64,000 nucleotides of DNA from positions 1,707,001-1,771,000 of the forward strand of contig NZ_CP116413.1 of NCBI RefSeq assembly GCF_030064675.1, in the 5' to 3' direction. This DNA comes from Crossiella sp. CA-258035. Lineage in GTDB: Bacteria > Actinomycetota > Actinomycetes > Mycobacteriales > Pseudonocardiaceae. The position numbers were made by a program, and so were the translations under genes. This document shows, piece after piece, positions 23,242 to 53,443 of the stretch; positions within the stretch are counted from its first letter, which is position 1, and every line of letters starts with the position of its first letter. The notes below the pieces were generated by a model. The model saw only the letters and a program-made list of their open reading frames with translations, did no database searches and was not told the origin of the DNA.

Positions 23242-24276
23242 ATGCGGGTGCTGCTCACCGGCCACCAGGGTTACCTCGGCAGCGTCATGGCCCCGGCGCT
23301 GACCGCGGCCGGGCACCAGGTGCACGGCCTGGACTCCGGCCTGTTCGCCGACTGCGTGCTCGGCCCGGAACCGGCCGACCCGGACGGTTTCGCCGTCGAC
23401 CTGCGGGACGTCACCGCCGAGCACGTCGCCGGGTTCGACGCGGTGGTCCACCTGGCCGCGCTGTCCAACGACCCGCTCGGGTCGCTGGAGCCCGGCCTGA
23501 CCTACGACATCAACCATGCCGCCTCGGTGCGGCTGGCCCGGCTGGCCAAGGAGGCCGGGGTCGCCCGGTTCCTCTACGCCTCGACCTGCTCGGTCTACGG
23601 CGCGGCGGGCGAGGAGCTGGTCGGGGAGAGCGCGCCGCTGCGGCCGGTCACCCCGTACGCGGAGAGCAAGGTCCGGGTGGAGGACGACCTGGTGCACCTG
23701 GCCGGGGACGGCTTCAGTCCGGTGTTCCTGCGCAACGCCACCGCCTTCGGCTTCTCGCCGAGGCTGCGCGCGGACATCGTGCTGAACAACCTGGTCGGCC
23801 ACGCCATCCTGACCGGCCAGGTCCGGGTGCTCTCCGACGGCACCCCGTGGCGGCCACTGGTGCACGCCGCGGACATCGCGGCGGCCTTCCTGGCCGCGCT
23901 GCACGCGCCCGCCGAGGCCGTGCACTGCCAGGCGTTCAACGTGGGCATGGCGGAGAACAACCTGACCGTGGCCCAGATCGCCGAGTCGGTGGTGGCCGCG
24001 GTGCCCGGCTCCGAGCTGCTGATCACCGGCGAGGCCGGCAACGACCCGCGCTCCTACCGGGTGGACTTCGCCAAGATCACCGAGGTGCTGCCCGAGTACC
24101 GTCCACAGTGGACTGTGCTGGGCGGCGCGGCGGAACTGGCCGACGCCTACCGCAAGCACGGCCTGACCCAGGAGTCCTTCCAGCGCCGCTTCACCCGCCT
24201 GCCCCGCCTGTCCGACCGCAGGGACGCCGGCACCCTCGCCCCCGACCTCCGCCCGGTGCGGGAGCCGGTCCCGTGA
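23242..24276 (+). CDS. NAD-dependent epimerase/dehydratase
   Basis: A 344-residue extended [20 protein letters not shown] is the NAD-binding motif (GxxGxxG with His in second place). [11 protein letters not shown] and [13 protein letters not shown] give Ser and Yxxx[18 protein letters not shown] is the nucleotide-sugar signature. It is the last plus-strand gene of the CDP-sugar set and may be the dehydratase or reductase step. ATG 23242 has GGAAGGG upstream; GTG 23233 is an alternative that overlaps the previous stop. A repeat cluster follows the stop. Confidence 0.9.
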
Positions 24277-24294
24277 CCGCCTCAACCCTCCGCC

Positions 24295-24437
24295 GTGTTG
24301 GCCGTTGTCGTACGCCGTGTTGGCCGTTGTCGTACGCCACGTTGGCCGAAACGGACAGCAGAAGCGGTGCGCCTCGCCCACAACGGCCAACACCGGGTAC
24401 GAGTTCGGCCAACACTCCGTACGAGTTCGGCCAACAC
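24295..24437. repeat. Inverted cluster of 19-bp repeats between convergent genes
   Basis: Two tandem copies of GTGTTGGCCGTTGTCGTAC (24295-24313, 24317-24335) and a degenerate third (around 24339-24353) face a partial copy at 24379-24393 and two copies of GTACGAGTTCGGCCAACAC in the opposite direction (24397-24415, 24419-24437). The consensus is GTACGA-N3-CGGCCAACAC. The cluster fills the space between two convergent genes and could fold into one large hairpin. A further copy lies at 33665. Confidence 0.92.
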
Positions 24438-24449
24438 GGTGGGGAGGGG

Positions 24450-25025
24450 TCAGCTCAGGGTGTCGCGGAGGGTGGCCCAGGTGCCGGCGGCGGCGTCGCG
24501 GGGGCTGAGCATGCGGACCTCCTGGGGCCAGTCGATGGCCAGGTCCGGGTCGTCGTAGCGGACCGCGACGTCCTCGGCCGGGTCGTGCGGGCGGTCGATG
24601 CGGTAGCAGACGTCGGCGGTCTCGCTGAGCACCTGGAAGCCGTGCAGGAAACCCGGCGGCACGTACAGGTGCGCGAAGGTCTCGTCGTCCAGGCGGAAGG
24701 CCTGGTGGCGGCCGAAGGTGGGCGAGCCGGGGCGGGCGTCGACCAGCACGTCGTGCACCGCGCCGCGGGCGCAGCGGACCAGCTTGGCCTCGCCGCGGCC
24801 GAGCCGGCCGTGCAGGCCGCGCAGCACGCCCCGGTGCGAGCGGGACTGCGAGTCCTGGCGGAAGGCATCGGGGTCAAGGCCGTGCGCGGCGGCGATGTCG
24901 GCGTCGAAGGTGCGGGTGAACAGGCCGCGGTCGTCCCGGTGCGGGCTGGGCAGGAACAGCAGGACGTCGGCGAGGTCGGTGCGGCGGATCTCCACCCGGG
25001 CATCTTGCACGAGCGGGCCCGCCAT
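24450..25025 (-). CDS. dTDP-4-dehydrorhamnose 3,5-epimerase-like cupin (RmlC family)
   Basis: A 191-residue RmlC-family protein. DDRGLFTRTFDAD, FRQDSQSRSHRGVLRGLHGR (the catalytic His and the phosphate-binding Arg lie here), HDVLVDARPGSPTFGR and YVPPGFLHGFQVLSETADV follow the family order. The usual NxS before RGVLRG is DSQS. It would epimerise C3 and/or C5 of a 4-keto sugar, fitting the CDP-sugar set next door. It is the only minus-strand gene in this part of the locus, and the ATG at 25025 shares the CATG of the divergent gene; GTG 25010 is an alternative start. Confidence 0.88.
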   Translation of the reverse strand: MAGPLVQDARVEIRRTDLADVLLFLPSPHRDDRGLFTRTFDADIAAAHGLDPDAFRQDSQSRSHRGVLRGLHGRLGRGEAKLVRCARGAVHDVLVDARPGSPTFGRHQAFRLDDETFAHLYVPPGFLHGFQVLSETADVCYRIDRPHDPAEDVAVRYDDPDLAIDWPQEVRMLSPRDAAAGTWATLRDTLS

Positions 25026-27138
25026 GGGGACTGACCAGACGGGTGGCGCCCGGCACGCCTGCCGGTTCTGCCGAGGGGTGCGCGGGCGGATCGTGCTGGA
25101 CCTGCACACCCAACCGGCCTGCGACCACTTCCCGCCCGCTGCCGACTCCGGCCCCGACCCGGCCTACCCGTTGCAGCTGTGGCTGTGCGAGGACTGCGGG
25201 CTGGCCCAGCTGCTCGACGACCCGACCGTGCCGGAGGAGCCGCTGGCCACCGAACCCGCGGCACTCGTGCACCAGGCCGCCGACGCGGTCCACCGGGTGG
25301 CCGCCGCCGGGCTGCTGCCGGAGGGGGCCACCGTCGCGGAGTACGGCAGCCCGCACGGCGGCTCCTGGCTGCCCCGGCTGGCCGAGCGCGGCCTGCGCCC
25401 GGTCGCCGACGGGGAGTCCGCGCAGGTGGTGCTGGACTGCTTCGGGCTCATGCACCACGCCGACCAGGCCGCCGCGGTCAAGGAGCGGGCAGACCGGCTG
25501 GAGACCGGTGGTGTGCTGCTGGTCCAGTTCCACTCGCTGGCTACCATTGTCCGATGTGGACAGTGGAACGCGTTGCGGCACGGCCACTACGCCTACTACT
25601 CGACCCCGGCGCTGGCCAGGATGCTCACCGTGGCCGGGCTGTGCCCGCGCTCGGCCTGGGTGTTCGACCTCTACGGCGGCACCGTGCTGCTGGCCGCGGT
25701 CAAGGGACCGGCCGCGCCCGACCCGGCGCTGTCCGCGTTGCTGATCGGGGAGAGCTCGCTCGGGGTCACCGATCCGGCGGTGCTGGGCGGTGTGCAGCGC
25801 CAGGTCACCGCCAGCGCGGCGGCCCTGCGCGGCTACCTGGTGGCCGCGCGTGCCGAGGGCAGGCGGGTGCTGGGCTACGGGGCCGCCTCCAGGGCGGTGG
25901 CGCTGCTCTGCGCGGCCGGGGTGGACCGGGAGCTGCTGCCCGCGGTGGCCGATGCCTCGCCGGGAAAGCAGGGACGGCGGATGCCGGGCAGCGGGGTGCC
26001 CGTGATCGCGCCGGCCCGACTGATCGAGGCCGCGCCCGATGAGGTGCTGCTCTTCCTGCCCGACCTGCTCGACGAGGTCAGGGCCGCCTATCCGGAGATC
26101 ACCGGCTGGGTCATCGCCGAACCCGAGCCACGTCCGGCCGAGCCGGTCCGCAGAGAGGAACCCCCGATGAGCGCCCCGACCGACGACCGCCCCCAGCCCG
26201 CCCCGCGACCGGCCCCGGCGCTCATCCGGAAGGTGCCCGCGCCGGTCGCGGTCGGCTTCCCGGTGCGCAACGGCAAGCCCTACCTGCAAGGCGCGCTGGA
26301 CTCGCTGCTGGCCCAGCGCGGGGTCGACTTCGAGCTGCACATCGCGGACAACTGCTCCGACGACGGCACCGAGGACATCTGCCGCGAGCTGGCGGGCAAG
26401 GACGAGCGGGTGCGCTACCTGCGGCGGGCGGAGAACGTCGGGGTCACCGCCAACCACAACATGCTGGTCCGCGAGGTGCACAGCCCCTACTTCCTGTGGG
26501 CGGCCGCCGACGACGCCTCGCACCCCGACCGGCTGCGGCTGCTGCTGGAGGCGCTGGAGAGCGACCCGTTCGCGGTGCTGTCCTTCAGCGCCGCCCGGCA
26601 GATCGACCGGGACGGGCAGACCCTGGGAGTCTGGCGCAACCCCTGCCGCACCAACCACCTGGACCCGGTGGTGCGGCTGAGCGACCTGATCGAGCTGGAA
26701 CATGAGAACTACCACTGCTACGGGCTGATGAAGCGGGAGGTGCTCCTGCGTACGCTGTTGCTGCCGCCGGTGAAGAACAACGACCGCGTCCTGGTCGCCG
26801 AACTGGCGCTGCACGGACCCTTCGCCGAGGTCGAGCAGGACCTGCTCTTCCACCGGCTGCACGAGCGCAGGCTGACCCAGAGCGTCTCCCAGCGTGACTG
26901 GTACCGGCAGCAACGCACCGACGGCCGCAAGCTGGTCCTGCCCAACGTCGAGGAGGCCGGCTGGTACCTCAAGGCGGTGCGCAACTCACCGCTGCGGGGC
27001 GCCGAGCTCGGCCGCGCGCTGTGGGCGTTGCGGCCCTGGTTCAAGGCCAACGCGGTGCCGATGGCGCGCAACGTGGCGCGGGCCGCGGTGGACGGAGCGA
27101 GAATGATCACCGGGCCGGGACGCCCGGACGATCGGTGA
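25024..27138 (+). CDS. In-frame fusion of a degenerate sugar C-methyltransferase-like protein and a GT2 glycosyltransferase
   Basis: One open frame of 704 residues. Residues 1-375 follow the C-methyltransferase fold: CRFCRG and CEDCGLAQL zinc site, then a middle domain, then VLGYGAASRAVALL. But the SAM loop is VAEYGSPHGGS instead of VxEVASNDG, and the catalytic YHEHFxYY is RHGHYAYY, so Tyr and Glu are lost and methyl transfer is doubtful. From about 382 (MSAPTDD) a GT2 follows: VAVGFPVRNGKPYLQGALDS, ADNCSDDGTE, FLWAAADD. ATG 26167 has GAGAGGA 7 nt upstream, so the glycosyltransferase may also be made alone. The start at 25024 overlaps the divergent epimerase start. Confidence 0.8.
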   Translation: MGTDQTGGARHACRFCRGVRGRIVLDLHTQPACDHFPPAADSGPDPAYPLQLWLCEDCGLAQLLDDPTVPEEPLATEPAALVHQAADAVHRVAAAGLLPEGATVAEYGSPHGGSWLPRLAERGLRPVADGESAQVVLDCFGLMHHADQAAAVKERADRLETGGVLLVQFHSLATIVRCGQWNALRHGHYAYYSTPALARMLTVAGLCPRSAWVFDLYGGTVLLAAVKGPAAPDPALSALLIGESSLGVTDPAVLGGVQRQVTASAAALRGYLVAARAEGRRVLGYGAASRAVALLCAAGVDRELLPAVADASPGKQGRRMPGSGVPVIAPARLIEAAPDEVLLFLPDLLDEVRAAYPEITGWVIAEPEPRPAEPVRREEPPMSAPTDDRPQPAPRPAPALIRKVPAPVAVGFPVRNGKPYLQGALDSLLAQRGVDFELHIADNCSDDGTEDICRELAGKDERVRYLRRAENVGVTANHNMLVREVHSPYFLWAAADDASHPDRLRLLLEALESDPFAVLSFSAARQIDRDGQTLGVWRNPCRTNHLDPVVRLSDLIELEHENYHCYGLMKREVLLRTLLLPPVKNNDRVLVAELALHGPFAEVEQDLLFHRLHERRLTQSVSQRDWYRQQRTDGRKLVLPNVEEAGWYLKAVRNSPLRGAELGRALWALRPWFKANAVPMARNVARAAVDGARMITGPGRPDDR
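26153..26169 (+). promoter_or_regulatory. Internal ribosome binding site and ATG inside the fused gene
   Basis: GAGAGGA (26153-26159) lies 7 bases before an in-frame ATG (26167-26169), exactly at the junction between the methyltransferase-like part and the glycosyltransferase part. It looks like the original start of a separate glycosyltransferase gene, kept after the upstream stop was lost. Confidence 0.6.
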
Positions 27139-27152
27139 TCGGGAGAGAGCGC

Positions 27153-27878
27153 GTGGACGCACTGGATGTCTTTCGGGTGCTGCGGCAGCGGTGGAAGCTC
27201 ACCGCCCTGCTGCTCGCCGGGCTGGTCCTGTTACTCGCGGCGGTCGCCTTCGCGGTGCCGCAGCAGTACCGGGGAACCAGCCTCACCATGGTGCTGCGCC
27301 AGTACGGCGGCCAGGACCGCAACCCCTTCGCCGCGGTGGACCGCTCGCAGGGCCAGGCCGCGGTGGTGGTGATCGCGGTGCTCAACTCGCAGCAGACCCG
27401 CAGGGAGCTGGCCGCCCAGGGCGGCACCGCGAGCCTGGAGGTCTCCAACGAGGGCGGCGGAGTGTCCACAACGGACAGTCCGTTCATCACCGTGATCGCC
27501 ACCGGGGCCAGCGAGGCCGCGGTGCGCAAGACCGGGCAGCTGGCCATGCAGCGGATCAGGGACGAGCTCAAGCGGCGGCAGGACACCCTGCTGGTGCCGG
27601 TGGAACAGCAGCTCACCCTGAACGAGGTGCTCTCGCCCAACGAGATCACCACCACCAGGGCCGCGCAGCTGCGCGCGCTGGGCCTCACCGCGGGCATCGG
27701 CCTGGTCGCGGTGGTCCTCGCCGTGGTGCTGGTGGACCGCCGCGGCAACCGGCCCAAGCCGGCCGCGCCGGAGCCCAAACCCTCGCCGCGCAAGCGGTTG
27801 CAGGACTCCGACGCCGAGGTCACCGAGCACATCCAGCGTGACCAGGTGCCCGATGTGGCCCCCCAGGAACGTCAGTGA
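27153..27878 (+). CDS. Wzz-like polysaccharide chain-length/co-polymerase membrane protein
   Basis: A 241-residue protein. A short cytoplasmic start (MDALDVFRVLRQRWKLTALL) leads into helix 1 (LLLAGLVLLLAAVAFAV), then an outer domain of about 145 residues, then helix 2 (LGLTAGIGLVAVVLAVVLV) and a basic, Pro-rich tail. This is the Wzz_N topology found in polysaccharide co-polymerases, here without a kinase domain. It probably helps set polymer length with the polymerase encoded next. GTG 27153 has GGGAGAGAG upstream. Its end overlaps the next start (GTGA). Confidence 0.85.
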   Translation: MDALDVFRVLRQRWKLTALLLAGLVLLLAAVAFAVPQQYRGTSLTMVLRQYGGQDRNPFAAVDRSQGQAAVVVIAVLNSQQTRRELAAQGGTASLEVSNEGGGVSTTDSPFITVIATGASEAAVRKTGQLAMQRIRDELKRRQDTLLVPVEQQLTLNEVLSPNEITTTRAAQLRALGLTAGIGLVAVVLAVVLVDRRGNRPKPAAPEPKPSPRKRLQDSDAEVTEHIQRDQVPDVAPQERQ

Positions 27879-30104: not shown

Positions 30105-30929
30105 ATGGGCAACCGGGACTACGGGCTGCTGCCCGGCGGGGTGAAACAGGCGCTGCGCCGCACCGTCGGCCGCTACGTGGTGGGCGAGACCTGGTGGCGG
30201 GTGAAGTTCGCCGCCGAGCGGGCCGCCGCGCGCCGGGCCGAGGACGCCGAGATCGCCCGCCTGGCCACGCTGTTACCCGCCACGCCGACCGCGCTGTTCA
30301 CCGTGGCCATCCCGACCTACAAGCGGCCGGAAGCCCTGGCCCGCGCGGTGCGCAGCGCGCTCGCGCAGACCGTCACCGACCTCTCCGTGGTGGTGGTCGA
30401 CGACGGCGGTGGAGAGCTCGGCGCGCTGCCGGCGGACCCCCGGCTGACCGTGTTGTCCTTGGCGCGCAACCACCACAGCCCCGGACTGGCCCGCAACGCG
30501 GCCATCCGGCTGACCCGCTCGCCGTTCGTGGCCTTCCTCGACGACGACAACACCTGGCGCCCGCACCACCTGGAGACCGTGCTGCCCGCGCTGCGCGCCG
30601 GGGCCGGGCTGGTCTACACCGCGCTGCACCGGAGCAGGCCGGACGGGTCCACTGTGGACATCCTCGGCCGGGACTTCGACCGGCGTGCGCACGCCGACAC
30701 CGCGTGGGTGGACGTCAACGCGGTCGCCGTGCGCCGCTTCCCCGGCCTGCGCTTCGACCCGTGGGCCAGACCGGGCTGGGTGCACCCCAGGGAGGACTGG
30801 GAGTTCACGCACCGGCTCTCCGCCGCGCTGCGGGTGCGGCACCTGCCGGAGGTCACCGTGGACTACGCGGTGCACGCCGGCAGCTACTTCAGCGAGTGGA
30901 CCACCGAGGCGCTGGGAGCGGGCAAGTGA
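30105..30929 (+). CDS. GT2 glycosyltransferase
   Basis: A 274-residue enzyme. After a basic N-terminal stretch of about 60 residues the GT-A fold begins: LFTVAIPTYKRPEALARAVR, LSVVVVDDGGG, PGLARNAAIRLTRSPFVAFL then DDDNTWRPHHLE, where DDD is the metal site. GWVHPREDWEFTHRL is the catalytic-acid region. ATG 30105 has GGAAGG upstream; GTG 30099 is an alternative. The start lies two bases after the previous stop. Confidence 0.9.
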   Translation: MGNRDYGLLPGGVKQALRRTVGRYVVGETWWRVKFAAERAAARRAEDAEIARLATLLPATPTALFTVAIPTYKRPEALARAVRSALAQTVTDLSVVVVDDGGGELGALPADPRLTVLSLARNHHSPGLARNAAIRLTRSPFVAFLDDDNTWRPHHLETVLPALRAGAGLVYTALHRSRPDGSTVDILGRDFDRRAHADTAWVDVNAVAVRRFPGLRFDPWARPGWVHPREDWEFTHRLSAALRVRHLPEVTVDYAVHAGSYFSEWTTEALGAGK

Positions 30930-37263: not shown

Positions 37264-38594
37264 TGAGCTTCCACCGCTCCGCCGAGCTCCAGGCCAGACT
37301 GCACCAGCTGGTGCCAGGGGGCGCGCACACCTACGCCAGGGGCGCCGACCAGTACCCGGAGTTCATGACCCCGGTGCTGGTCAAGGGCAGCGGGGCCAGG
37401 GTCACCGACGCCGACGGCAACGAGTTCGTCGAGTACGGCATGGGCCTGCGCGCGGTCACCCTCGGCCACGGCTACGCCCCGGTGACCGAGGCGGTGCGCG
37501 CGGTGCTGGCCGACGGCCTCAGCTTCACCCGGCCCACCACCCTGGAGCTGGCCGCGGCCGAGGACTTCCTGGCCACCGTGCCCGGCGCGGACATGGTGAA
37601 GTTCGCCAAGAACGGCTCCGACGTGACCACCGCCGCGGTCCGGCTGGCCCGCGCCGCCACCGGCCGCGACCTGGTCGCCATCTGCGCTGACCAGCCGTTC
37701 TTCTCCACCGACGACTGGTTCATCGGCACCGTGCCGATGTCCGCGGGCATCCCGGAAGCCGTCCGCGCGCTCACCGTGTCCTTCCGCTACAACGACCTGG
37801 ACTCACTGCGGTCCATTGTGGACGTCCATAGTGGACAGATCGCCTGTGTGGTGCTGGAGGCGGGCACCGCGCTGGCCGAACCGGAGCCGGGGTTCCTGGC
37901 AGGCGTGCGGGAGGTCTGCGACCGGCACGGCATCGTGCTGGTCTTCGACGAGATGATCACCGGTTTCCGCTGGGCCGCCGGTGGCGCGCAGTCGGTCTAC
38001 GAGGTGGTGCCGGACCTGTCCTGCTGGGGCAAGGCGATGGGCAACGGCTTCCCGATCGCCGCGCTGGCGGGTAAGCGTGAGCTGATGGAGCTGGGCGGGC
38101 TGGCCACCGGCGCGGACCGGGTGTTCCTGCTCTCCACCACGCACGGCCCGGAGTCGGTTTCGCTGGCCGCCTTCCGCGCGGTGGCCAGGGCCTACCGGGA
38201 GACCGACCCGGTGGCGGTGATGGAACGCCAGGGCGCCGCGCTTGCCATCGCGGTCAACCAGCTGGCCAGGGAGTTCGGTGTGGCGGATGCGGTGGCCGCG
38301 GTGGGCCGCCCGTCCTGCCTGGTGTTCACCACCCGGGACGCCAACGGCAACCCGTCCCAGGCCTACCGAACGCTGTTCCTGCAGGAACTGCTCAGCCGGG
38401 GCGTGCTCGGCCAGTCCTTCGTGATCTCCGCCGCGCACACCGACGCCGACCTCGCGCACACCGTCGAGGCGGTGCGGGGCGCGCTGGGCGTGTACCGCAA
38501 GGCTCTGGAGGCAGGCACCGTCGAGGGCCTGCTCCAGGGCCGTCCGGTGGCCCCGGCGCTACGCAGCCGCGCCGACCCGCGCCGGCTGGGCTGA
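37263..38594 (+). CDS. Class III PLP aminotransferase, HemL-like (glutamate-1-semialdehyde aminomutase family)
   Basis: A 443-residue enzyme. PGGAHTYARGADQYP, DADGNEFVEYGMGLRAVTLG, FAKNGSDVTTAAVRLARAAT, FDEMITGFRW (PLP Asp) and SCWGKAMGNGFPIAALAGKR (PLP Lys) are in class III order. Variants of HemL in sugar loci transfer amino groups to non-haem substrates, and its partner here is a GNAT, so amino-sugar or amino-acid decoration of the polymer is likelier than haem synthesis. Its last 36 bases overlap the 3' end of the convergent acyltransferase gene. Confidence 0.88.
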   Translation: MSFHRSAELQARLHQLVPGGAHTYARGADQYPEFMTPVLVKGSGARVTDADGNEFVEYGMGLRAVTLGHGYAPVTEAVRAVLADGLSFTRPTTLELAAAEDFLATVPGADMVKFAKNGSDVTTAAVRLARAATGRDLVAICADQPFFSTDDWFIGTVPMSAGIPEAVRALTVSFRYNDLDSLRSIVDVHSGQIACVVLEAGTALAEPEPGFLAGVREVCDRHGIVLVFDEMITGFRWAAGGAQSVYEVVPDLSCWGKAMGNGFPIAALAGKRELMELGGLATGADRVFLLSTTHGPESVSLAAFRAVARAYRETDPVAVMERQGAALAIAVNQLAREFGVADAVAAVGRPSCLVFTTRDANGNPSQAYRTLFLQELLSRGVLGQSFVISAAHTDADLAHTVEAVRGALGVYRKALEAGTVEGLLQGRPVAPALRSRADPRRLG

Positions 38595-40885: not shown

Positions 40886-41697
40886 GCGGGCAGCTCGGCT
40901 ACCTCGGCGCGCTGCTCGGCGGCGCGCTCGCGCTGGCCAGTCCCTGCTCGGCGCTGCTGCTGCCCGCCTTCTTCGCCTACGCCTTCGGCCACCCGGCCCG
41001 GCTGCTGGCCCGCACCGGCGTGTTCTACCTCGGCCTGGCCACCACGCTGGTGCCGCTGGGCGCGGCCGCGGCCAGTCTGGGCGGGCTGCTCACCGCGCAC
41101 CGCCAGACGGTGATCGGTGTGGCCGCGGTGCTGCTGATCGCCTTCGGCACGGCCCAGCTGTTCGGCCGCGGCTTCGGGTCAGGGCTGTCCCAGCGCTTCG
41201 CGGCCACCACCCGGATCTCCTCGGCCGTCTCGGTGTACGTGCTGGGCGCCACCTACGGCCTGGCCGGGTTCTGCTCCGGCCCGATCCTCGGCGGCGTGCT
41301 CACCGTGGCCGCCGCCGGCGGCGATCCCGGCTACGGCGCGGCCCTGCTCGCGGTCTACGGCCTCGGCATGGTGCTGCCGCTGTTCGTGCTGGCCATGCTG
41401 TGGGACCGGCTGAAGCTGGGCGAGCGGAGCTGGCTGCGCGGCCGAGAGGTCAGCCTGGGCCGCCTGCGCCTGCACTCGACGAACCTGGTGGCCGGGCTGC
41501 TGTTCATCGGCATCGGCGTGCTGTTCCTGGTCACCGACGGCACCGCGGCACTGCCGGGGATCGTCAGCGTGGACACCGAGTCCGCACTGGCCGAGCGCGC
41601 GGGCGAGCTGGCCGCGGGCGTGCCGGACCTGGTCGTCCTGCTCCCGGTACTCGCCGTGGCCAGCACCATGTTGGTCTGGCGGCTGCGCAAGGGTTAG
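40882..41697 (+). CDS. CcdA/DsbD-like transmembrane electron carrier
   Basis: A 271-residue protein with six to seven helices. ALASPCSALLLPAFFAYAFG in helix 1 and YGLAGFCSGPILGGVLTVAA in a later helix carry the two membrane cysteines of CcdA-type proteins, with the usual adjacent prolines. It would move electrons from cytoplasmic thioredoxin to the outer thioredoxin-fold partner, here the DsbA-like protein encoded upstream. The 3' end overlaps the convergent gene by four bases. Confidence 0.88.
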   Translation: MSGQLGYLGALLGGALALASPCSALLLPAFFAYAFGHPARLLARTGVFYLGLATTLVPLGAAAASLGGLLTAHRQTVIGVAAVLLIAFGTAQLFGRGFGSGLSQRFAATTRISSAVSVYVLGATYGLAGFCSGPILGGVLTVAAAGGDPGYGAALLAVYGLGMVLPLFVLAMLWDRLKLGERSWLRGREVSLGRLRLHSTNLVAGLLFIGIGVLFLVTDGTAALPGIVSVDTESALAERAGELAAGVPDLVVLLPVLAVASTMLVWRLRKG

Positions 41698-43019
41698 CCG
41701 GGCAGCGGCAGCCGCAGCGCGCGTTCCGCGATGCCCTGCAGCACCACATCGGTCGGCTTGGTCTCCTGACCCACCCACACCGCGCGCACGATCCGCACCC
41801 GGGAACCGTCCCGCGAGGTCGAGGACACCGCCTGCGCGAACGAGCTGGGCCCGCCCGGCCAGCTGCGGCCCTCGCGCAGCAGCTCGGTCACCCCGCCGCT
41901 CTGCTCGTCGTCGGCCAGCGCCTGGAACCGCTCGGCCTGCACCGCGTCGGCGAAGCTGACCACCACCACCGACACCGCGGCCTTGCGCTCCTCGTTGACC
42001 TCGAACAGGCTGCGCACCAGCGCGGTGCACGGGTTCTCCCGCAGCCACTGCTGCACCTGGCCGAAGGCCCTCGGCCCGCAGTCGGTCTCCCGCGACGAGC
42101 CGCGCGGCACGAAGTCCAGGCCGTCCACAGTGGACTCGGGCGGTTCCGGGCTGTGCAGCGCGGAGACCGCGCCGCTGCCGTTGGACTCCGGGGCCTCGCT
42201 GCCACAGGAGCGGGCCACCGCGGCGATCAGCAGCACCAGGGCCAGCGCGGCCACGGCCAGGCCGGCGATCGGCAGCCACGGCGGGCGCTTGGCCTTGGGC
42301 TTCGGCGCGGCCGGGCGCGGGGGAGCGGGGCGGCCGTCGGCGGTGAAGCGGGGGATGAGCATGGTGCTGGCGCTGGCCAGGTCCGGACTCACCGAGTCGG
42401 CGAAGCCCTCCGCGACCAGCTCACCGGCGGTCAGCGTGGCGGTCCGCCGGTCCACACTGGACAGCAGCCGCCTGGCCGCCTCCGCGGTGCACGGGCGCTC
42501 GTAGGTGGACAGCTCCTTCACCGCGGCCAGCAGCGCGGTCGGCGCCGGGTGCAGCACCCTGATGCCGCGGTGCAGGTCGCCGGTGGGCTGCAACACCTGG
42601 GCCACGTACGGGCCGACCGCGACCACGGTGGAGACGGGTAACGGCTCGATCCGCTCCGCCTGCAACCGCTGGGTCAGCGCGGAGGCCGCGGACAGCGCCT
42701 CCACCGCCGGGTTGAGCAGTCCGTCGTCCCTGATCAGCGGCCAGCCGTCGACCTTCCACTGCCCCTGCAACGGGGCTTCCAGCTTCATCGCGGGGCCGGG
42801 CAGGTCCACCCCGACCACCACGATCACCCCGCGCGGCAGCACGATCACCGCGTCCAGCGGCCGCAGGCTGCCCGGCGGCGTGCAGTCCAGCAGCGCGACC
42901 CCGCCGGCCAGGTCGGTGCCCACGCCCCAGGTCGACAGCGCCGCGCGCAGGTCGGCCTCGACCCCGTCCACCCGGGCTGACGGGTCGTCACCGAGCCGCA
43001 CCAACCGCACGCTGACCAC
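41694..43019 (-). CDS. Membrane protein with degenerate NERD-like N-terminal domain
   Basis: A 441-residue protein. Residues about 50-130 (PLDAVIVLPRGVIVVVGVDL, GQWKVDGWPLI, LLNPAVEALSAASALTQRLQ) follow the order of a nuclease-related NERD domain, but the E-x-K strand is GVDL, so no nuclease activity is expected. A Pro/Lys-rich linker precedes one helix (LPIAGLAVAALALVLLIAAV); the C-terminal 170 residues are outside and hold cysteines (CGSEA, TDCGPRA, NPCTALV). Function unknown. GTG 43019 is the first start. Confidence 0.7.
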   Translation of the reverse strand: MVSVRLVRLGDDPSARVDGVEADLRAALSTWGVGTDLAGGVALLDCTPPGSLRPLDAVIVLPRGVIVVVGVDLPGPAMKLEAPLQGQWKVDGWPLIRDDGLLNPAVEALSAASALTQRLQAERIEPLPVSTVVAVGPYVAQVLQPTGDLHRGIRVLHPAPTALLAAVKELSTYERPCTAEAARRLLSSVDRRTATLTAGELVAEGFADSVSPDLASASTMLIPRFTADGRPAPPRPAAPKPKAKRPPWLPIAGLAVAALALVLLIAAVARSCGSEAPESNGSGAVSALHSPEPPESTVDGLDFVPRGSSRETDCGPRAFGQVQQWLRENPCTALVRSLFEVNEERKAAVSVVVVSFADAVQAERFQALADDEQSGGVTELLREGRSWPGGPSSFAQAVSSTSRDGSRVRIVRAVWVGQETKPTDVVLQGIAERALRLPLPG

Positions 43020-43851: not shown

Positions 43852-44436
43852 GTGAGTGCCTCGGGTGGCTTGCGGCGGTTCTGGCCGCTGTTCCTGGTCG
43901 GGTTGGTGCTGCTCGGCGCGGGCACGGCCGGGCTGAGCCTGCGCCAGGCCGAGTCGCGGGTCAGCGAGGACCCCCAGGTGCCCGCGGTCATCGACACCAC
44001 CTCGGCCCGGCCGCGCGCCGAGGAGCCCGGACCGTCCACAGTGGAGTTCACCCCGGACGCCAGCGCGCACCCGGACGCCGCCGCCATCAGGAGCACGCTC
44101 ACCGGCTACTTCGACGCGATCAACAACCGCGACTTCGACAAGTGGCGCGCGCACGTGACCAGCAAGGTCGCCCTGGAGTACCAGCGCGCGAACTGGCTGG
44201 CCGACTACGCCAGCACCAAGGACGGCAGCATCCTGGTCCGCCGGGTGATCAACTCGCCGAACAACACGCTGCGGATCATGCTCAGCTTCACCAGCACCCA
44301 GGACGAGGCGAAGTCGCCTGCCACGGCCCGCTCGGACTGCAACCGCTGGCGCTCGACCTACCAGCTGGCCTGGGAGGGACGCCTGCTGCGCATCGACAAG
44401 GGCTCCCCGCAGAGCACCGTGGTCACCGTCTGCTGA
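43852..44436 (+). CDS. Membrane-anchored protein of unknown function
   Basis: A 194-residue protein from GTG 43852. One N-terminal helix (FWPLFLVGLVLLGAGTAGLS) anchors an outer part. Residues about 80-190 (AAIRSTLTGYFDAINNRDFD; TYQLAWEGRLLRIDKGSP) resemble an NTF2-like cone fold as in actinobacterial DUF4878-type proteins. The C-terminal VTVC and the stop codon are part of an 18-bp tandem duplication. Confidence 0.75.
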   Translation: MSASGGLRRFWPLFLVGLVLLGAGTAGLSLRQAESRVSEDPQVPAVIDTTSARPRAEEPGPSTVEFTPDASAHPDAAAIRSTLTGYFDAINNRDFDKWRAHVTSKVALEYQRANWLADYASTKDGSILVRRVINSPNNTLRIMLSFTSTQDEAKSPATARSDCNRWRSTYQLAWEGRLLRIDKGSPQSTVVTVC

Positions 44437-47007: not shown

Positions 47008-47027
47008 CGTTGGTCGCTCCTCGTTGC

Positions 47028-48044: not shown

Positions 48045-48145
48045 GCGGTGAGCAAAAACCGCCCCGCATATGTCTGTTTCATTGTGGTCAGCGCCAAGAA
48101 GTCCGCTCGCTGGCTAGGCCGAACGGGTGAGTGGTGAGACCGGGA

Positions 48146-49351
48146 TCACCAGAGTCCGCGAGCCCTGGCCAGCCGCCCGACCGCCAGGGCCACCCGCAGC
48201 ACCAGCGCGTCCCTCGGATCGGTGGCGGTGTGCCCGGTGATCTCGGCCACCCGGCGCAGCCGGTACCGCACCGTGTTGGAGTGCACGAACAAGGTCCGCG
48301 CACAGCTCTCCAGCACGCCACCGGCCTCCAGGTAGGCCTCCACCGTCTCCAGCAGCGAGCCGCCCGCCTCCACCAGCGGCCGCACCACCCGTTCCACCAG
48401 CTGCCGCTCCGCCTCCGGGTCCCCGGCCAGCGCGCGCTCGGGCAGCAGCTCGCCGGAGCGCACCGGCCGCGGCGCGGCGGGCCAGCCGACCACCGCGCGC
48501 AGCCCGGAGATGGCGTCGGCCGCGCTGTGGTGCGCCTCGGCCAGGCTGGCCACGGTCGGCCCGGCCACCACCGGCCCGTCGCCGAAGGCCTCGGACATCT
48601 TGGCCAGCACGTCGTGCCCGGTGGACCCGGCCACCGGCCCGCCGAGCACCACCACCAGCCGGGAGCCCTGCACGCCGAGCAGCACCGCGCGCCCGGTGCG
48701 GGCGGCCCGGCTGCGCACGTCGAAGACCACCGCGGGCGGGTCGTCGCTGGCCGGGTTGCCGACCAGCACGGTGGCCTCGGCGGCCAGGTCCCAGCCGAGC
48801 GCGGCGGCCCGCGAGAGCAGCGACTCCTCGGCGTCGCCACGCACGATGCCGTCCACCATCAGCGCTTCCAGCCGGGCGTCCCAGGCGCCCCTGGCCTCGG
48901 CCGCGGCGGCGTAGGAGGTGGCCGCGGCGAAGGCGATCTCCCGGCCGTAGCGCAGCACCGCCTCGGTCAGCCAGCTCCGCTCCGCGGTGTCCCGGCCCAG
49001 TATCGGCAGCTGCTGCTCCAGCTGGTCGATGGCGATCCGGACCAGCTCCACGGTCTGCCGCAGGCTGACCCAGCGGGAGATGTCGCGCGGCGCGGCCCGG
49101 AACGCCTCCGCGGTCAGCCGGATGGCCTGCCGGGGGTCGCGCAGCCACTCCACGAAGTTGGCCGCGCCGGTCTGGATCACCAGCAGCACGCTGGCCCGCT
49201 GGTCGGCCGGCATCCGGCGGAACCAGGGCAGCTGGGAGTCCATCGCGGCGATGCTGGCCGCGGCCAGGTCGCCGGAGGCGCGCTCCAGTCCGCGCAGGGT
49301 GGCCGGCGACAGCTCCGGCGGATGCGTGCCGGGCCCGGCCTCGGTGCTCAT
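48146..49351 (-). CDS. fasR: PucR-family transcriptional regulator of fatty acid synthesis (FasR-like)
   Basis: A 401-residue regulator. The C-terminal PucR helix-turn-helix is clear: ETVEAYLEAGGVLESCARTL then FVHSNTVRYRLRRVAEITGH. The N-terminal 350 residues are the GGDEF-like/CdaR-type sensory region of the Streptomyces FasR protein. FasR in Streptomyces binds in front of fabD and activates the fabD-fabH-acp-fabF operon; the same gene order here supports the name. Confidence 0.9.
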   Translation of the reverse strand: MSTEAGPGTHPPELSPATLRGLERASGDLAAASIAAMDSQLPWFRRMPADQRASVLLVIQTGAANFVEWLRDPRQAIRLTAEAFRAAPRDISRWVSLRQTVELVRIAIDQLEQQLPILGRDTAERSWLTEAVLRYGREIAFAAATSYAAAAEARGAWDARLEALMVDGIVRGDAEESLLSRAAALGWDLAAEATVLVGNPASDDPPAVVFDVRSRAARTGRAVLLGVQGSRLVVVLGGPVAGSTGHDVLAKMSEAFGDGPVVAGPTVASLAEAHHSAADAISGLRAVVGWPAAPRPVRSGELLPERALAGDPEAERQLVERVVRPLVEAGGSLLETVEAYLEAGGVLESCARTLFVHSNTVRYRLRRVAEITGHTATDPRDALVLRVALAVGRLARARGLW

Positions 49352-49539
49352 GCCGCCCAGAATCCCACGTCCGGCCGGTACTCAGGCGCACGCTGAGCGT
49401 TACCACAGTCGGGCGACCTTCTATACGGGGAAAATCCCAGATTAATGTGCGGCCAGTTCGCCCTGTTTTCCCTGCTCACCCGTCGGTAGGAACGAGCTGC
49501 TCGCCCGAAAGGGGCACAGGCGATGCAGGAGGTTCCACT

Positions 49540-51180
49540 GTGCGTAGCACAACCGCCATCCGCGGCAGGTGGTCGCGAGCGGCCGCGCTGACGCTGGCGC
49601 TGCTCGGGCTGCTCGGCACCCAGGTCGTGACCGCGACCTCGGCGGCCGACGCGGCCGAGACGGCCAGCCCGGCCGCGCTCAAGGAGTTCTACGGCCAGGT
49701 CCCGAACTGGCAGCCGTGCAAGTTCAACACCGGGCTGGACTGCGCCACCCTGGTGGTGCCGCTGGACTACCGCAAGCCCAAGCAGGAGAAGATCTCGCTG
49801 TCGGTGAGCAGGCTCAAGGCCAGCGACCCGGCCAAGCGGCGCGGCATCCTGCTGACCAACCCGGGTGGTCCCGGCGGCAGCGGCCTGGCCATGCCGACCT
49901 ACTTCTACGGCACCCCGCTGACCGAGGTCTACGACCTGATCGGCTTCGACCCGCGCGGGGTCAACGAGTCCACCCTGCTCAGCTGCGAGGTCACCACCGA
50001 CCTGCACAAGCTCAGCTCCCGCCCGGAGGACAAGGACTTCCCGGCCTGGGCGGCCAGCGCCCGGCAGAGCGAGGAAGCCTGCCGCAAGGCCGGTGGCGCG
50101 CTGCGCAAGCACGTCAACACGCCCAACACCGCCCGCGACATGGACGTCATCCGCGGCGTGCTGGGGGAGAAGAAGCTCAACTACGTCGGCTACTCCTACG
50201 GCACCTACCTCGGCGCGGTCTACGGCAGCCTGTTCCCCAAGCAGCTGGACCGCAGCGTGCTGGACTCCGCGGTGCACCCGGAGTGGATCTGGCGGGAGCA
50301 GTTCAAGCGCCAGTCGGTGGCCTTCCGGGAGAACGTGGACCTGTGGGCCGAGTGGGCCGGGCAGCGCAACAACCGCTTCGGCATCGGCAAGACCAAGGCC
50401 GAGGTGCTGGCCACCGTCGAGCAGGTGGCGGCCAAGCTGCACGCCAAGCCGGTGGACGGCTTCGACCGCACCCAGTTCGACGCGGGCATGGGCGGCGGCG
50501 CGCGGTACCGGTTCAACTGGGAGTTCCTGGCCGAGGACGTGAAGTACTTCCGGGACTTCCAGCCGGGCTCCGCCGAGTTCGCCGAGGCGGTCAAGGCGGG
50601 CAAGGAACTGGCCGCGCTGGGCCTGGCCCAGCTGCGTCCCGGCGTGTTCGACACGGTGACCTGCGAGGCGGACTGGCCGGGTGACCTCAACACCTACTAC
50701 CAGGACATGCGTGAGTTCCGGGACCGCTACCCCTACGGCCTCGGCGTCGGCCGCGCCGCGCCGCGCACCTGCACCTTCCGCTCCTTCACCCCGCCGGAGC
50801 AGCCGGTCAAGCTCAAGCGCAAGGGCTACCAGACCGGTCTGGTGATCCAGGCCGACGGCGACACCCAGACCCACTACGACGGCGGCCCGGCCATGGCCGA
50901 GCGACTGGAGGACCACCTGATCTCGGTGGCCGACGAGGGCCGCCACGGCCTGTACGCCCTCGGCGGCAACACCTGCGTGGACCAGCACGTGAACCGGTAC
51001 CTGGTCGACGGCGTGCTGCCGCCGAGCCGGGTGATCTGCGCGGGCACCCCGCGTCCGGACGTGCCTGCCGACACCGAGTCCGCGTGGTCCCGCCGGTCCG
51101 CGCCCACCCCGCCGTCCGCGCTGGCGGAGAAGGTGCGCGCGGCCGCGGCAGCCAACAAGGTGACCAACCTGCCGTTCTGA
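49540..51180 (+). CDS. Secreted tripeptidyl aminopeptidase-like alpha/beta hydrolase
   Basis: A 546-residue exported hydrolase. Signal peptide about 1-38 (ALTLALLGLLGTQVVTATSA). LTNPGGPGGSGLAM is the oxyanion region, NYVGYSYGTYLGAVYGSLFP holds the nucleophile (GxSxG), and late residues LVIQADGDTQTHYDGGPAMA and DEGRHGLYALGGNTCVD hold the Asp and His. The C-terminal TAP-like domain is present. Such enzymes of Streptomyces cut tripeptides from the N-terminus of proteins. GTG 49540 has GGAGG 7 nt upstream. Confidence 0.92.
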   Translation: MRSTTAIRGRWSRAAALTLALLGLLGTQVVTATSAADAAETASPAALKEFYGQVPNWQPCKFNTGLDCATLVVPLDYRKPKQEKISLSVSRLKASDPAKRRGILLTNPGGPGGSGLAMPTYFYGTPLTEVYDLIGFDPRGVNESTLLSCEVTTDLHKLSSRPEDKDFPAWAASARQSEEACRKAGGALRKHVNTPNTARDMDVIRGVLGEKKLNYVGYSYGTYLGAVYGSLFPKQLDRSVLDSAVHPEWIWREQFKRQSVAFRENVDLWAEWAGQRNNRFGIGKTKAEVLATVEQVAAKLHAKPVDGFDRTQFDAGMGGGARYRFNWEFLAEDVKYFRDFQPGSAEFAEAVKAGKELAALGLAQLRPGVFDTVTCEADWPGDLNTYYQDMREFRDRYPYGLGVGRAAPRTCTFRSFTPPEQPVKLKRKGYQTGLVIQADGDTQTHYDGGPAMAERLEDHLISVADEGRHGLYALGGNTCVDQHVNRYLVDGVLPPSRVICAGTPRPDVPADTESAWSRRSAPTPPSALAEKVRAAAAANKVTNLPF

Positions 51181-51207
51181 TTTCCACGCTGACACAACGA
51201 AAAAAGG

Positions 51208-51239
51208 GAGAAGGCCCGGCGCTCGCGCCGGGCCTTCTC
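51208..51239 (+). terminator. Strong hairpin terminator after the aminopeptidase gene
   Basis: GAGAAGGCCCGGCG (51208-51221) pairs perfectly with CGCCGGGCCTTCTC (51226-51239) around a CTCG loop. It begins 27 bases after the stop, with an A run just upstream; the T tract is poor, as is usual in high-GC actinomycetes. Confidence 0.85.
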
Positions 51240-51298
51240 ATCCCTCCGGTCCCCACCGGTGGTTCTACTGTGGACGGTCAGGGCCGTTCGGGCCAGTC

Positions 51299-51317
51299 CA
51301 TTACTCCTATCGGGTCT
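51299..51317 (+). promoter_or_regulatory. Conserved upstream motif, second copy
   Basis: CATTACTCCTATCGGGTCT matches the motif at 18709 in 17 of 19 bases. It lies 83 bases before the start of the next gene and after the terminator of the previous one, so it is in a promoter position. Confidence 0.5.
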
Positions 51318-51399
51318 GTGTTGCGCCTTGCTGGTTTAGGCCGAGCAGCCCACGATCAACTCCGGTAGCGACAACCTGTCGCGGACAGAGGAGGAAGTC

Positions 51400-52179
51400 G
51401 TGGGAGGCGAACTACGCCGGGGACTCGCGGACGCGTGGTCCATGGTGGCGACATTTGTGCCGAAGCTCTTCGGCTTCCTGCTGATCCTGTTGGTCGGCTG
51501 GCTGATCGCCAAGGCGCTGGCCAAGGTGGTCTCGTTGCTGCTGCGCAAGACTGGCTTCAACCGGCTGGCCGACAAGGCGGGCGTGGGCACGCTGCTGGCC
51601 AGCCAGCGGGTGGACGCCGCCGAGATCATCGTCAAGCTCGTCTACTACTTCGTCCTGCTGATCGCACTGCAACTGGCCTTCAGCGCCTTCGGCACCGGCA
51701 ACGCGGTGAGCCAGCTGCTCACCGACATCGTCAGCTACCTGCCGCGGATCGTGGTGGCGATCGTGCTGCTGCTGGTGTCCGCGGCCATCGCCAGGGTGGT
51801 GCGGGACATGGTGAGCGCCGCGCTCGGCGCGCGCCCGTTCACCCCGCTGCTGCGCGGCATCACCTACGCCTTCATCCTGGCGCTGGGTGTGATCGCCGCG
51901 CTGAACCAGCTCGGCATCGCCACCGCGGTCACCCTGCCGGTGCTGATCACGGTGCTGGCTACGGTCGGCGGCATCCTGGTGGTGGGCGTCGGCGGCGGCC
52001 TGATCCGGCCGATGCAGGACCGCTGGGGTCGCTGGCTGAGCCGGATCGAGAGCGAGGCCGCGGCCGGCCGCAACCCCGCTCCCGCGCCGGGCACCTCAAC
52101 GCCGCCGGGGCCGCCGCCGAACAACGACCCGACCCCGCCCGCCGGGACGCCGATCCCGCCGATGCCGCCGGCGCAGTAG
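51400..52179 (+). CDS. TM-helix-repeat membrane protein (mechanosensitive-channel-like)
   Basis: A 259-residue protein. FVPKLFGFLLILLVGWLIAK then ALAKVVSLLLRKTGFNRLAD is the conserved TM-helix repeat found in CmpX/MscS-related proteins; a second repeat (YLPRIVVAIVLLLVSAAIAR) follows. Four or five helices in all, then a Pro-rich tail of about 45 residues. The MscS beta domain is missing, so channel activity is uncertain. GTG 51400 is the start; it converges on the phytase gene, with one base between the stops. Confidence 0.82.
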   Translation: MGGELRRGLADAWSMVATFVPKLFGFLLILLVGWLIAKALAKVVSLLLRKTGFNRLADKAGVGTLLASQRVDAAEIIVKLVYYFVLLIALQLAFSAFGTGNAVSQLLTDIVSYLPRIVVAIVLLLVSAAIARVVRDMVSAALGARPFTPLLRGITYAFILALGVIAALNQLGIATAVTLPVLITVLATVGGILVVGVGGGLIRPMQDRWGRWLSRIESEAAAGRNPAPAPGTSTPPGPPPNNDPTPPAGTPIPPMPPAQ

Positions 52180-52180
52180 C

Positions 52181-53443
52181 TCACCGCTCCAGCGACGCCA
52201 GCACGTCCTGCCAGCTCAGATAAGCGAAACCGGTGGTCTCCAGTTCCTCGCCAGAGGGACCGGTGGCCACCGGTTTCCGCTCTCCGTCGTGCACCACGAG
52301 CAGTCCGGCCGGATATCCGGGCAGCGGCGTGGTCACCACGGCCGCCCCGTCGGAGTGCTCCACCGAGTCCCGCCCGTGCCCCTCGCGCACCCGGAAGGTG
52401 CCCAGCACCTTGCCGGGCCTGACCCGGTCGTAGACCACGAACCGCGAGTCGCCCTGGCTGGAGGCGACCAGCTGCCCCTTGCCGTCCCCGGCGTCGGCGA
52501 TGGTCAGCCCCTCGGCGTCCGCGGTCAGCCACTTGCCGCCGAAGCCCGGGTCCGGGCCGTCCGGCACGCACTCCTCGGTCTGCTCGTCGTACTTCGCGGG
52601 CACGCCGAACTCGCGCACCCGGTCGATCAGCTCCGGCTGGCCGAAGCCCTTGGTGGACAACGGAATCCGCCAGATGCCGACATCCTCCTGGGCGGCGTAG
52701 AGCACCCGGTGCCGGGAGTCGATCACCATGCCCTCGATCTGCGGCCGCTCACCCGGCTCGGCGCACGGCGTCCAGGTCTTGCCGTCGGGCAGCCGGAAGC
52801 TCGCCGGGATGTCCACAGTGGACAGTTTGCGGACACTGACACCCGCCGCGGTGCGCACCGGGGTGAGCAGGGCCAGCCGGGTCTCGTGGCGGCGGCTGGC
52901 CACCACCAGCGGGACGCCCCGGTCGGTGCCCGCGGCCAGGCCGTAGGCGGTGCGCTGCTCGTCCACCTCGGCCTCGGTCGCGCTGAACACCCTCGGCGTC
53001 TCCGGCGCGGTCACGTCGGTGAGCACCTTGTTCCCGGCCGCCGCGCCGCGCGGGTCGACCCGGTACACCCGCACCCGGTCCCGGCCGCGGTCGCTGACGA
53101 AGGCCAGGTCGCCCAGCAGGTCCACGTTGTTGAACCGGCCCGGCGCGGCCCCTGGCTGTGGCGGCGGTGGCGCGGCCACCAGCTGCAACTGCTTGCCGGC
53201 GAGGTCGAAGACGGCCAGGCCGCCCTCCTTCAGCGTGCCCAGCACCACGCTGTCCGCCGGCCGGGACGGGTGCGTCCAGATCGCCGGGTCGTCGGCGTTG
53301 GCCTTCGGCGGGCGGCCACTGGCGTCGTCGACGAACGGCGGGGTCTGGGCGACGGGGACGACGGTGCCGGGCCGGGCGTTGGCGAGGCCGGGCAGACCGA
53401 GCACGAGCAGGGCGACAACTGGGGGGACCAGCAGGTTGCGCAT
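52181..53443 (-). CDS. Secreted beta-propeller phytase-like protein
   Basis: A 420-residue exported protein with signal peptide (about 1-23). KANADDPAIWTHPSRPADSV, TLKEGGLAVFDLAGKQLQLV, FNNVDLLGDLAFVSDRGRDR and VRVYRVDPR are classic for 3-phytases of the beta-propeller type; DAEGLTIADAGDGKGQLVAS and SSQGDSRFVVYDR follow. The acidic residues that bind calcium are kept (DDPAIW, NNVD, DAEG). It would release phosphate from inositol hexakisphosphate outside the cell. Confidence 0.92.
   Translation of the reverse strand: MRNLLVPPVVALLVLGLPGLANARPGTVVPVAQTPPFVDDASGRPPKANADDPAIWTHPSRPADSVVLGTLKEGGLAVFDLAGKQLQLVAAPPPPQPGAAPGRFNNVDLLGDLAFVSDRGRDRVRVYRVDPRGAAAGNKVLTDVTAPETPRVFSATEAEVDEQRTAYGLAAGTDRGVPLVVASRRHETRLALLTPVRTAAGVSVRKLSTVDIPASFRLPDGKTWTPCAEPGERPQIEGMVIDSRHRVLYAAQEDVGIWRIPLSTKGFGQPELIDRVREFGVPAKYDEQTEECVPDGPDPGFGGKWLTADAEGLTIADAGDGKGQLVASSQGDSRFVVYDRVRPGKVLGTFRVREGHGRDSVEHSDGAAVVTTPLPGYPAGLLVVHDGERKPVATGPSGEELETTGFAYLSWQDVLASLER

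Follow-up and report, generated by a model that had tools for sequence, protein, structure and literature searches.

A 13-bp palindrome iterated across the Crossiella genome and its candidate reader, a conserved PadR-family regulator

The 64-kb window, meaning the whole stretch of DNA analyzed here, contains four exact copies of the palindrome GTCCACWGTGGAC, a 13-bp sequence with A or T at its center, together with a set of near copies. The sites are given below; where no strand is named, none was assigned.

1361..1373, plus strand: variant GTCCAAAGTGGAC, of the GTCC-NN-W-GTGGAC class
10619..10631, plus strand: one-mismatch form GTCCACGGTGGAC, with a G/C center, a rare class
24101..24113: exact site GTCCACAGTGGAC, within an NAD-dependent epimerase gene (23242-24276, plus strand), frame RPQW
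25549..25561, plus strand: variant GTCCGATGTGGAC, codons CGA TGT GGA
27464..27476, minus strand: variant GTCCGTTGTGGAC; G002 has an exact site at this place
30647..30659: exact site GTCCACTGTGGAC, within a glycosyltransferase-2 gene (30105-30929, plus strand), frame STVD
37811..37823: variant GTCCATTGTGGAC, adjoining the 37824 site, frame SIVD
37824..37836: variant GTCCATAGTGGAC, adjoining the 37811 site, frame VHSG
42123..42135: exact site GTCCACAGTGGAC, within a predicted gene without a Pfam hit (41694-43019, minus strand), frame STVD
42450..42462, minus strand: variant GTCCAGTGTGGAC, identical in all three relatives that align there
44034..44046, plus strand: one-mismatch form GTCCACAGTGGAG
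52811..52823: exact site GTCCACAGTGGAC, within a phytase-like gene (52181-53443, minus strand), frame STVD

The four exact copies and the abutting pair at 37811 and 37824 had been recognized in a sequence-only reading of this DNA, and they are borne out along with the frames it assigned (RPQW, STVD, and SIVD). The near forms it placed at 1361, 25549, 42450, and 44034 also stand, whereas the one placed at 27463 starts at 27464. Those at 10619, 18653, and 51263 were absent from it.

Four exact copies in the window compare with an expectation of about 0.0014, obtained by scaling from the third-order Markov model of the sample, in agreement with the initial estimate of well under one per 64 kb. 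Fourteen places match with at most two mismatches, against a mean of 2.1 and a maximum of 5 in 100 dinucleotide shuffles. The whole 9.17-Mb genome holds 460 copies, or about 50 per Mb, and none of the reversed control. The Markov comparison, which covers a sampled 1.264 Mb, gave 81 exact copies observed versus 0.03 expected, a count far from the third-order expectation. The over-representation is thus confirmed and is larger than was first supposed.

The palindrome is part of a wider motif, GTCC-NN-W-GTGGAC, found at about 150 per Mb, and near copies number about 840 genome-wide (extrapolated from the sample). The one-mismatch forms deviate at position 6 in 39 of 91 cases and at position 1 in 22 of 91, with the inner CC/GG almost invariant, and the two-mismatch forms differ at positions 5 and 6 on one side in 94 of 135. 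Deviations are therefore concentrated at inner positions 5 and 6, with fewer at the ends, and GTCC/GGAC is the fixed part. The spacing between these halves is also constrained, as GTCC-N5-GGAC occurs 375 times versus 72 expected, with an excess at that spacing only. In the A-centered orientation, 64 of 81 sites are preceded by C or T and 40 of 81 are followed by A or G (flank counts leave out sites within 30-40 bases of either locus end). The bases preceding the sites are mostly C, then C or T, and past about 3 bp the flanks show no conservation between sites.

Predicted genes hold 70 of the 81 sampled sites, matching a coding fraction of 0.851 obtained with a home-made gene caller, which missed the frame holding 37811 and 37824, later read as coding. 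Sites fall in genes in proportion to the coding fraction, coding and noncoding DNA being alike, and their description as mostly genic holds. Protein sequence had been said not to explain them, and this is upheld: the tetrapeptide STVD is present 73 times versus about 6 expected, and 67 of the 73 are spelled TCC-ACW-GTG-GAC, demonstrating imposition at the DNA level. These 67 account for about 7% of the 934 ACA/ACT codons of the sampled genes.

Site density varies among genes and along the chromosome. It is lowest, at 72 per Mb, in the quartile of genes whose codon scores are best, versus 116-206 in the others (the gene-length table takes 239 of 242 relaxed sites). Long genes, mostly NRPS/PKS, are enriched, as judged from 1000 residues of each of ten, some of them truncated by locus ends. 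Density by megabase bin is uneven, ranging from 86 to 264 per Mb (p 1e-6), and NRPS/PKS genes account for part of this. Within the sample, no density order with distance from dnaA at position 1 was evident by eye. A hairpin acting in RNA was rejected, since genes carry asymmetric variants in sense and antisense orientation almost equally (69 and 60 of 129 genic), as was a replication-strand signal, for which co-orientation is weak (86 to 64).

Exact sites are retained in G003, a relative with 84.5% identity, where seven of 11 aligned sites are kept, one with a flipped center, whereas random 13-mers are identical in 22% of cases (p 0.004; p 0.02 counting only the six identical sites). Relaxed-only sites are conserved there no better than their flanks (0.826 versus 0.818, n = 15). 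Within the window, the 24101 site is retained in four aligned genomes of the same genus, the 30647 site has A at its center in G001 and G002, and the 37824 position carries exact GTCCACAGTGGAC in G111 and G001. Lost or gained sites differ from their orthologs by 2-7 bases. Replacement of the 13-bp block in one event is not claimed, because the 25549 site shows stepwise, mostly synonymous changes: its codons read CGC TGC GGG in G003, with residues R, C, and G unchanged. A mobile or insertional origin was likewise set aside, as site length is constant across the aligned gains and losses examined and flanking sequence is not conserved between sites past about 3 bp; one of these gains and losses (1582352) shows a gap of two bases in the flank.

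Within the Pseudonocardiaceae, 209 of 249 genomes carry the exact palindrome, with a maximum of 640 copies; it is high in some related families and rare elsewhere in the phylum. G007 and G025 are among the family genomes with no copy. A search for a replacement palindrome, covering 100 kb from each of three genomes, G068 and G025 (0 copies) and G124 (7 copies), gave no strong candidate, at low power. The loose core GTCC-N5-GGAC is slightly raised in G124 (15 versus 5) and G025 (13 versus 8), with varied spacers, and not in G068 (4 versus 5). Among the literature matches listed, there is no recognized account of an actinobacterial palindrome that is highly iterated or over-represented, or of a PadR link, and of 27 papers holding the literal motif string, the 20 listed concern other subjects by title. 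In the available portion of one, GTGGAC occurs in a primer only (PMC5992853), and the SpdA/sps plasmid palindrome CGTCACGTGACG, as given in the text at hand, differs in sequence (PMC4170104).

The strongest lead to a reader comes from genomes with few copies. The protein P0001 has PadR and Vir_act_alpha_C domains, and its structural matches include 5x11 (PadR, E 2.5e-12), 8jxk (NapM, E 1.6e-6), and 1yg2 (AphA); the ortholog in the window genome lies at C1:7983696-7984187. When 395 phylum genomes besides its own were divided by the presence of a certain ortholog (E <= 1e-25), the exact site was present in five of 16 with the ortholog versus 13 of 379 without (Fisher p 0.00035). Four of the five genomes having both, from four families, have the site beginning no more than about 50 bp from where padR starts, although the padR starts were estimated from alignment and are uncertain, as open frames extend further upstream. 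In G313, the exact site and padR are on separate contigs. Three Rhodococcoides genomes and one Propionibacteriales MAG have exactly two copies each, and in every case the two lie upstream of the presumed start of padR, at a distance of 33-35 bp from each other. The inner site with its flanks, ACCGTCCACAGTGGACTGTCAAG, is identical between Rhodococcoides and the MAG, whose PadRs share 46% identity over 148 residues. The base before the site is likewise C or T in the putative operators of L160, L174, L182, and L169, as it is in most of the genome-wide sites.

The ortholog was found in all 36 family genomes checked, own included, with a best match of E 1.1e-26 or better. Codons for the helix octapeptide TRSQVYRE occur once per genome, in the best match in 35 of 36 and in the second match in G035. 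The association has exceptions. No exact site is present in 11 of the 16 ortholog-bearing phylum genomes, and a search for GTCC-NN-W-GTGGAC in these and G313 (12 genomes) placed it at padR in G362 only, overlapping the 5' end of the padR match. Exact sites are not near padR in the family genomes G124, G101, and G069 (all sites listed) and G043 (one site), and a search for relaxed site pairs found none upstream of padR in the window genome. The zero-copy genomes G007 and G025 keep the same PadR and octapeptide, so site number must depend on more than PadR.

We propose, as slightly favored by these sequence comparisons, that the 13-mer is the putative operator of a conserved autoregulatory PadR, multiplied chromosome-wide and bound by it as a chromosome-wide DNA-binding protein. 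The site would be the high-affinity target of this one AphA-like, winged-helix regulator, and its ancestral use would be control of the regulator's own promoter. Since the palindrome precedes padR in several distant relatives with one or two copies, what began as a small local switch may have reached hundreds of exact copies spread through genes in Pseudonocardiaceae and some related families, where selection on the DNA would maintain them. We infer that the PadR of the window genome binds these sites, and any effect of binding is inferred likewise. Most likely, PadR dimers would occupy them chromosome-wide as a nucleoid-level organizer or distributed regulator. A bolder version, tentative and rather doubtful, is that a local autoregulator became a chromosome-wide system with its operator at hundreds to more than 1000 places, including synonymous and amino-acid-changing positions. 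PadR would then coat or organize the whole nucleoid or mark self DNA, with the octapeptide fixed and site number tuned among genera over the range 0 to 640.

P0001 resembles PadR-family regulators in its domains and in a dyad site in its own promoter region. PadR regulators known so far have few sites each, unlike the hundreds of perfect sites in genes here. SlmA, Noc, and MatP have palindromic sites of 12-14 bp scattered over the chromosome, tens each, with a strong ori/ter pattern; here there are hundreds, and the sample shows no clear ori/ter pattern. SlmA, which belongs to a transcription-factor family, has been recruited to chromosome use, and the role of PadR may be comparable in kind to that of SlmA or NapM. 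NapM is, like P0001, an actinobacterial PadR-family protein, described in the accessible part of its report as a mycobacterial nucleoid-associated protein whose role in the chromosome and in transcription is broad; that part describes no such palindromic site (PMC13340245). It is unlikely that P0001 and NapM are the same ortholog, because the 8jxk match is weaker than that to 5x11.

Another chromosomal reader, either an NdgR-like IclR regulator whose half-site spacing has changed or a DnaA-like protein or replication factor, is a fairly unlikely alternative. NdgR of Streptomyces coelicolor, in the excerpted text, binds the 15-bp imperfect palindrome [GT]T[CT]CAC[CA][CTA][TC][GC][TC]GGAC at 18 of 19 ChIP-seq loci (PMC4340878). 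Its half-sites are nearly identical to GTCCAC and GTGGAC, but the operator is 15 bp rather than 13, the loci number 19 rather than hundreds, and the protein family is another (same excerpt, PMC4340878). The NdgR halves lie two bases wider, and GTCC-N7-GGAC shows no excess in the window genome (77 versus 72 expected). GTCCACA within the palindrome presumably resembles an actinobacterial DnaA box, but the TT of the box is unmatched by the bases before the sites. The 13-mer is also repeated within genes resembling replication initiators, in Rhodobacteraceae and on a phage contig, with no PadR nearby in the 3.5-12.6 kb examined, which favors another reader, as does the failure of PadR presence to predict site number. 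However, this leaves the padR promoter position in several lineages unexplained.

A HIP1-like origin, in which the palindromes are made and kept by a DNA methyltransferase together with a repair system that biases mutation, and their use at padR promoters is secondary, appears decidedly unlikely. To our knowledge, known methyltransferase sites are all shorter than 13 bp with 12 fixed bases. The likeness noted at the outset holds in part: as with HIP1 and the alternate HIPs in the available text, the palindrome is far above expectation, genome-wide, mostly genic, imposed on DNA, and clade-wide with lineages that lost it (PMC4390886). It differs in length (HIP1 has 8 bp), in density (about 50 exact or 150 relaxed versus 300-2700 per Mb in most cyanobacteria), and in its link to a PadR promoter (Elhai 2015, PMC4390886, as excerpted). 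Unlike the end-biased single-base deviations of the HIP class in that excerpt, deviations here fall at inner positions 5 and 6, with GTCC/GGAC fixed (PMC4390886). As a pattern, HIP1 offers a fair analogy, but the regulator is the best lead.

A DNA-uptake or transfer-like sequence, spread by biased gain of tagged DNA and accumulating where proteins tolerate it, would fit a taxon-specific, over-specified element that forces residues into proteins, is scarcest in genes with the best codon scores and is enriched in long, mostly NRPS/PKS genes, but it is very improbable, as the palindrome is symmetric, we know of no symmetric uptake sequence, and the padR promoter position in distant genomes is left unexplained.

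For the function of highly iterated palindromes, the 2015 HIP1 paper, in its available part, gives only a model (PMC4390886). The palindrome is a DNA element that reshapes proteins, with about 7% of the sampled ACA/ACT codons in one tetrapeptide. The Pseudonocardiaceae offer a HIP-type element with a concrete candidate reader, site numbers graded from 0 to 640 between genera, and cultured hosts, so that the reader, the function, and the evolutionary drive become directly testable.

The sequence-only reading had reported four exact copies of the palindrome GTCCAC(A/T)GTGGAC (the 13-mer) and several near copies; all were found in the window, one of them at 27464 rather than 27463. The over-representation it proposed held against a third-order Markov model, with 81 copies versus 0.029 expected in a 1.264-Mb sample of this genome (the window together with 60 stretches of 20 kb taken at even intervals). 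The centre base of the sites in this sample is A in 37, T in 44, G in 2 and C in 0. Enlarging the sample by 20 stretches, to 1.636 Mb, gave 92 exact copies, and the whole 9.17-Mb single-contig genome, of which the window spans positions 1,707,001-1,771,000, contains 460, with 0 copies of the reversed pattern used as a control.

Imperfect copies are also in excess. In samples of the window genome, one-mismatch forms number 107 versus 1.2 by chance and two-mismatch forms 135 versus 21, and 94 of the latter are altered at positions 5 and 6, both on one side. GTCC-N5-GGAC was found 375 times versus 72 expected, and none of the other spacings from 0 to 15 exceeded 101; the commonest N5 spacers keep one GT intact, adjoining the W. 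Because the mismatches cluster at positions 5 and 6, the N5 spacing is in excess and the spacers keep one GT and the W, we took GTCC-NN-W-GTGGAC as the working motif (the relaxed site), which has weak ACT...AGT flanks. Counting each place once, there are 242 relaxed sites in 1.636 Mb (~148 per Mb), which extrapolates to ~1,350 in the whole genome, some 840 of them non-exact.

The palindrome works on the DNA level. Its copies had been described as lying mostly inside genes and in different reading frames. Indeed, 70 of 81 exact sites fall within predicted genes, a share equal to the coding fraction, and the VHSG and PQW frames occur beside the commonest, STVD. The STVD tetrapeptide appears 73 times in 1353 predicted proteins versus 5.8 expected from residue frequencies, and 67 of these are encoded by TCC-ACA/ACT-GTG-GAC, with ACA and ACT making up 3.5% of Thr codons. 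At site 25549, the codons CGA TGT GGA correspond to CGC TGC GGG in the relative G003; the residues are unchanged, and the differing third bases form the motif.

Relaxed sites are denser in genes of more than 1200 residues (394 per Mb versus 126 elsewhere, p 3e-10). A domain check of ten long site-bearing genes, covering 1000 residues of each, identified seven NRPS or PKS genes, one WXG100-like gene, one Lhr-type helicase and one gene with no Pfam hit. The lowest density, 72 per Mb, belongs to the top codon-score quartile among genes of 200–700 residues. Density is uneven across megabase bins (p 1e-6) and follows no evident trend with distance from dnaA, which was judged by eye to be the contig's first gene.

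Other repeats were observed as well. A dispersed inverted-repeat element of ~150–190 bp with many diverged copies lies at window 24264-24460; it has 22 matches (query included) in 10 sampled loci of the window genome and occurs in dozens of places in the relative G002. A CCCGGCA heptamer array of ~46 copies lies at L015 7123-7451 (genome ~1,831,120). At L012 2517, an exact site is the centre of a long palindrome that may be a terminator, as the predicted genes on either side of it converge.

Of the 11 exact sites that could be aligned with G003 (84.5% identity), 7 are retained, one with a flipped centre, compared with an identical sequence in 22% of random 13-mers (p 0.004; 0.02 for the 6 identical sites only). 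The four unretained sites have 3–5 positions changed; apart from the centre flip, none of the 11 orthologs differs by 1–2 positions. Two G003 sites have no counterpart in the window genome, with differences of 2 and 7 bases. Relaxed-only sites show no retention (0.826 versus 0.818 in flanks, n=15). Against G111 (97.2%), 5 of 5 aligned exact sites are kept.

The site is present in 209 of 249 family genomes, at a copy number typical of the genus: 0 in 15 of 15 genomes listed for g64, 330–500 in g1 and 640 in g9. Crossiella sp. S99.2 (10.7 Mb) has 500 copies, Crossiella sp. SN42 (9.7 Mb) 473 and Herbihabitans rhizosphaerae 640. Among 395 other genomes sampled across the phylum, 18 carry the site, each with 1 or 2 copies. 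High counts recur in some other families of the order, as grouped by the tool (237, 114 and 74 in G039, G056 and G046), and Virgisporangium (Micromonosporaceae), Dactylosporangium and like genera have 82–450.

We propose that the 13-mer is a putative operator of a conserved PadR-family regulator. A scan of the named genome collection for two sites ≤30 bp apart gave 41 stretches, and in four (three Rhodococcoides, one Propionibacteriales MAG) the pair lies upstream of a PadR-family gene, in genomes with exactly two copies each. The proteins of the two lineages, P0001 and P0002, share 46% identity over 148 residues and the domains PadR and Vir_act_alpha_C; the inner operators upstream of their genes have 23 bases in common, ACCGTCCACAGTGGACTGTCAAG. 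In Rhodococcoides, a DUF1707 (SHOCT-like) gene (L174 555-1058, minus strand) is divergent from padR, with the site pair between them provided that it starts at an internal ATG, and may be co-regulated with padR.

A P0001 ortholog (E ≤ 1e-25) occurs in 16 of the 395 phylum genomes, and the exact site in 5 of these versus 13 of 379 ortholog-free genomes (p 0.00035). In four of the five with both, from four families (G547, G505, G398, G459), the site immediately precedes the estimated start of padR; G313 has the two on separate contigs. The relaxed pattern, sought near padR in G313 and the 11 genomes lacking an exact site, was found only in G362, at the padR 5' end. The ortholog is present in 36 of 36 family genomes searched, including the window genome. 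Codons for the PadR helix octapeptide TRSQVYRE occur once in each, in the best match in 35 and in the second match in G035. Among the main observations against the PadR reading, the exact site is absent from 11 of the 16 ortholog-bearing phylum genomes, zero-copy family members retain an identical octapeptide, and no exact site lies near padR in G124, G101, G069 or G043.

The 13-mer also occurs as repeats in phage-like replication-initiator genes outside the family, which counts against PadR as the sole reader.

Multiple exact 13-mers in Rhodobacteraceae loci and IMG/VR phage contigs
L165 1727-1801: three 13-mers in a replication-initiator-like gene, Rhodobacteraceae; spacing conserved
L170 1678-1752: the same
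L194 1001-1075: the same
L201 3036-3061: abutting pair, IMG/VR phage contig; such pairs also in L204, L205, L206 and L208

The L165 gene belongs to PHROG 270, and the other two proteins, from L170 and L194, begin with the same sequence; by their layout, the triplets look like phage or plasmid iterons. In L201, the pair directly precedes a small gene (Pfam: terminase small subunit; PHROG: minor tail), and its tandem arrangement matches that of window 37811/37824.

Dispersed palindromic sites have a precedent in those of SlmA, a transcription-factor-family protein. NdgR, an IclR-family regulator unrelated to PadR, may be an alternative reader of such half-sites: its Streptomyces coelicolor operator is described with near-identical GTCCAC/GTGGAC-like halves, two bases farther apart than in the 13-mer (PMC4340878). 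However, the NdgR-type spacing is not enriched in the window genome. The half-site may be common to two unrelated regulator families. A broad chromosomal role is described for the mycobacterial PadR-family protein NapM (PMC13340245); from matching structure entries, NapM and P0001 are probably different orthologs.

Because PadR occurs without sites, NdgR has similar half-sites and phage-like initiator genes carry the repeats, sequence is no proof of a single reader. On the simplest reading, the 13-mer is the putative operator of this PadR and would have been multiplied chromosome-wide in one radiation, with selection acting on the DNA.
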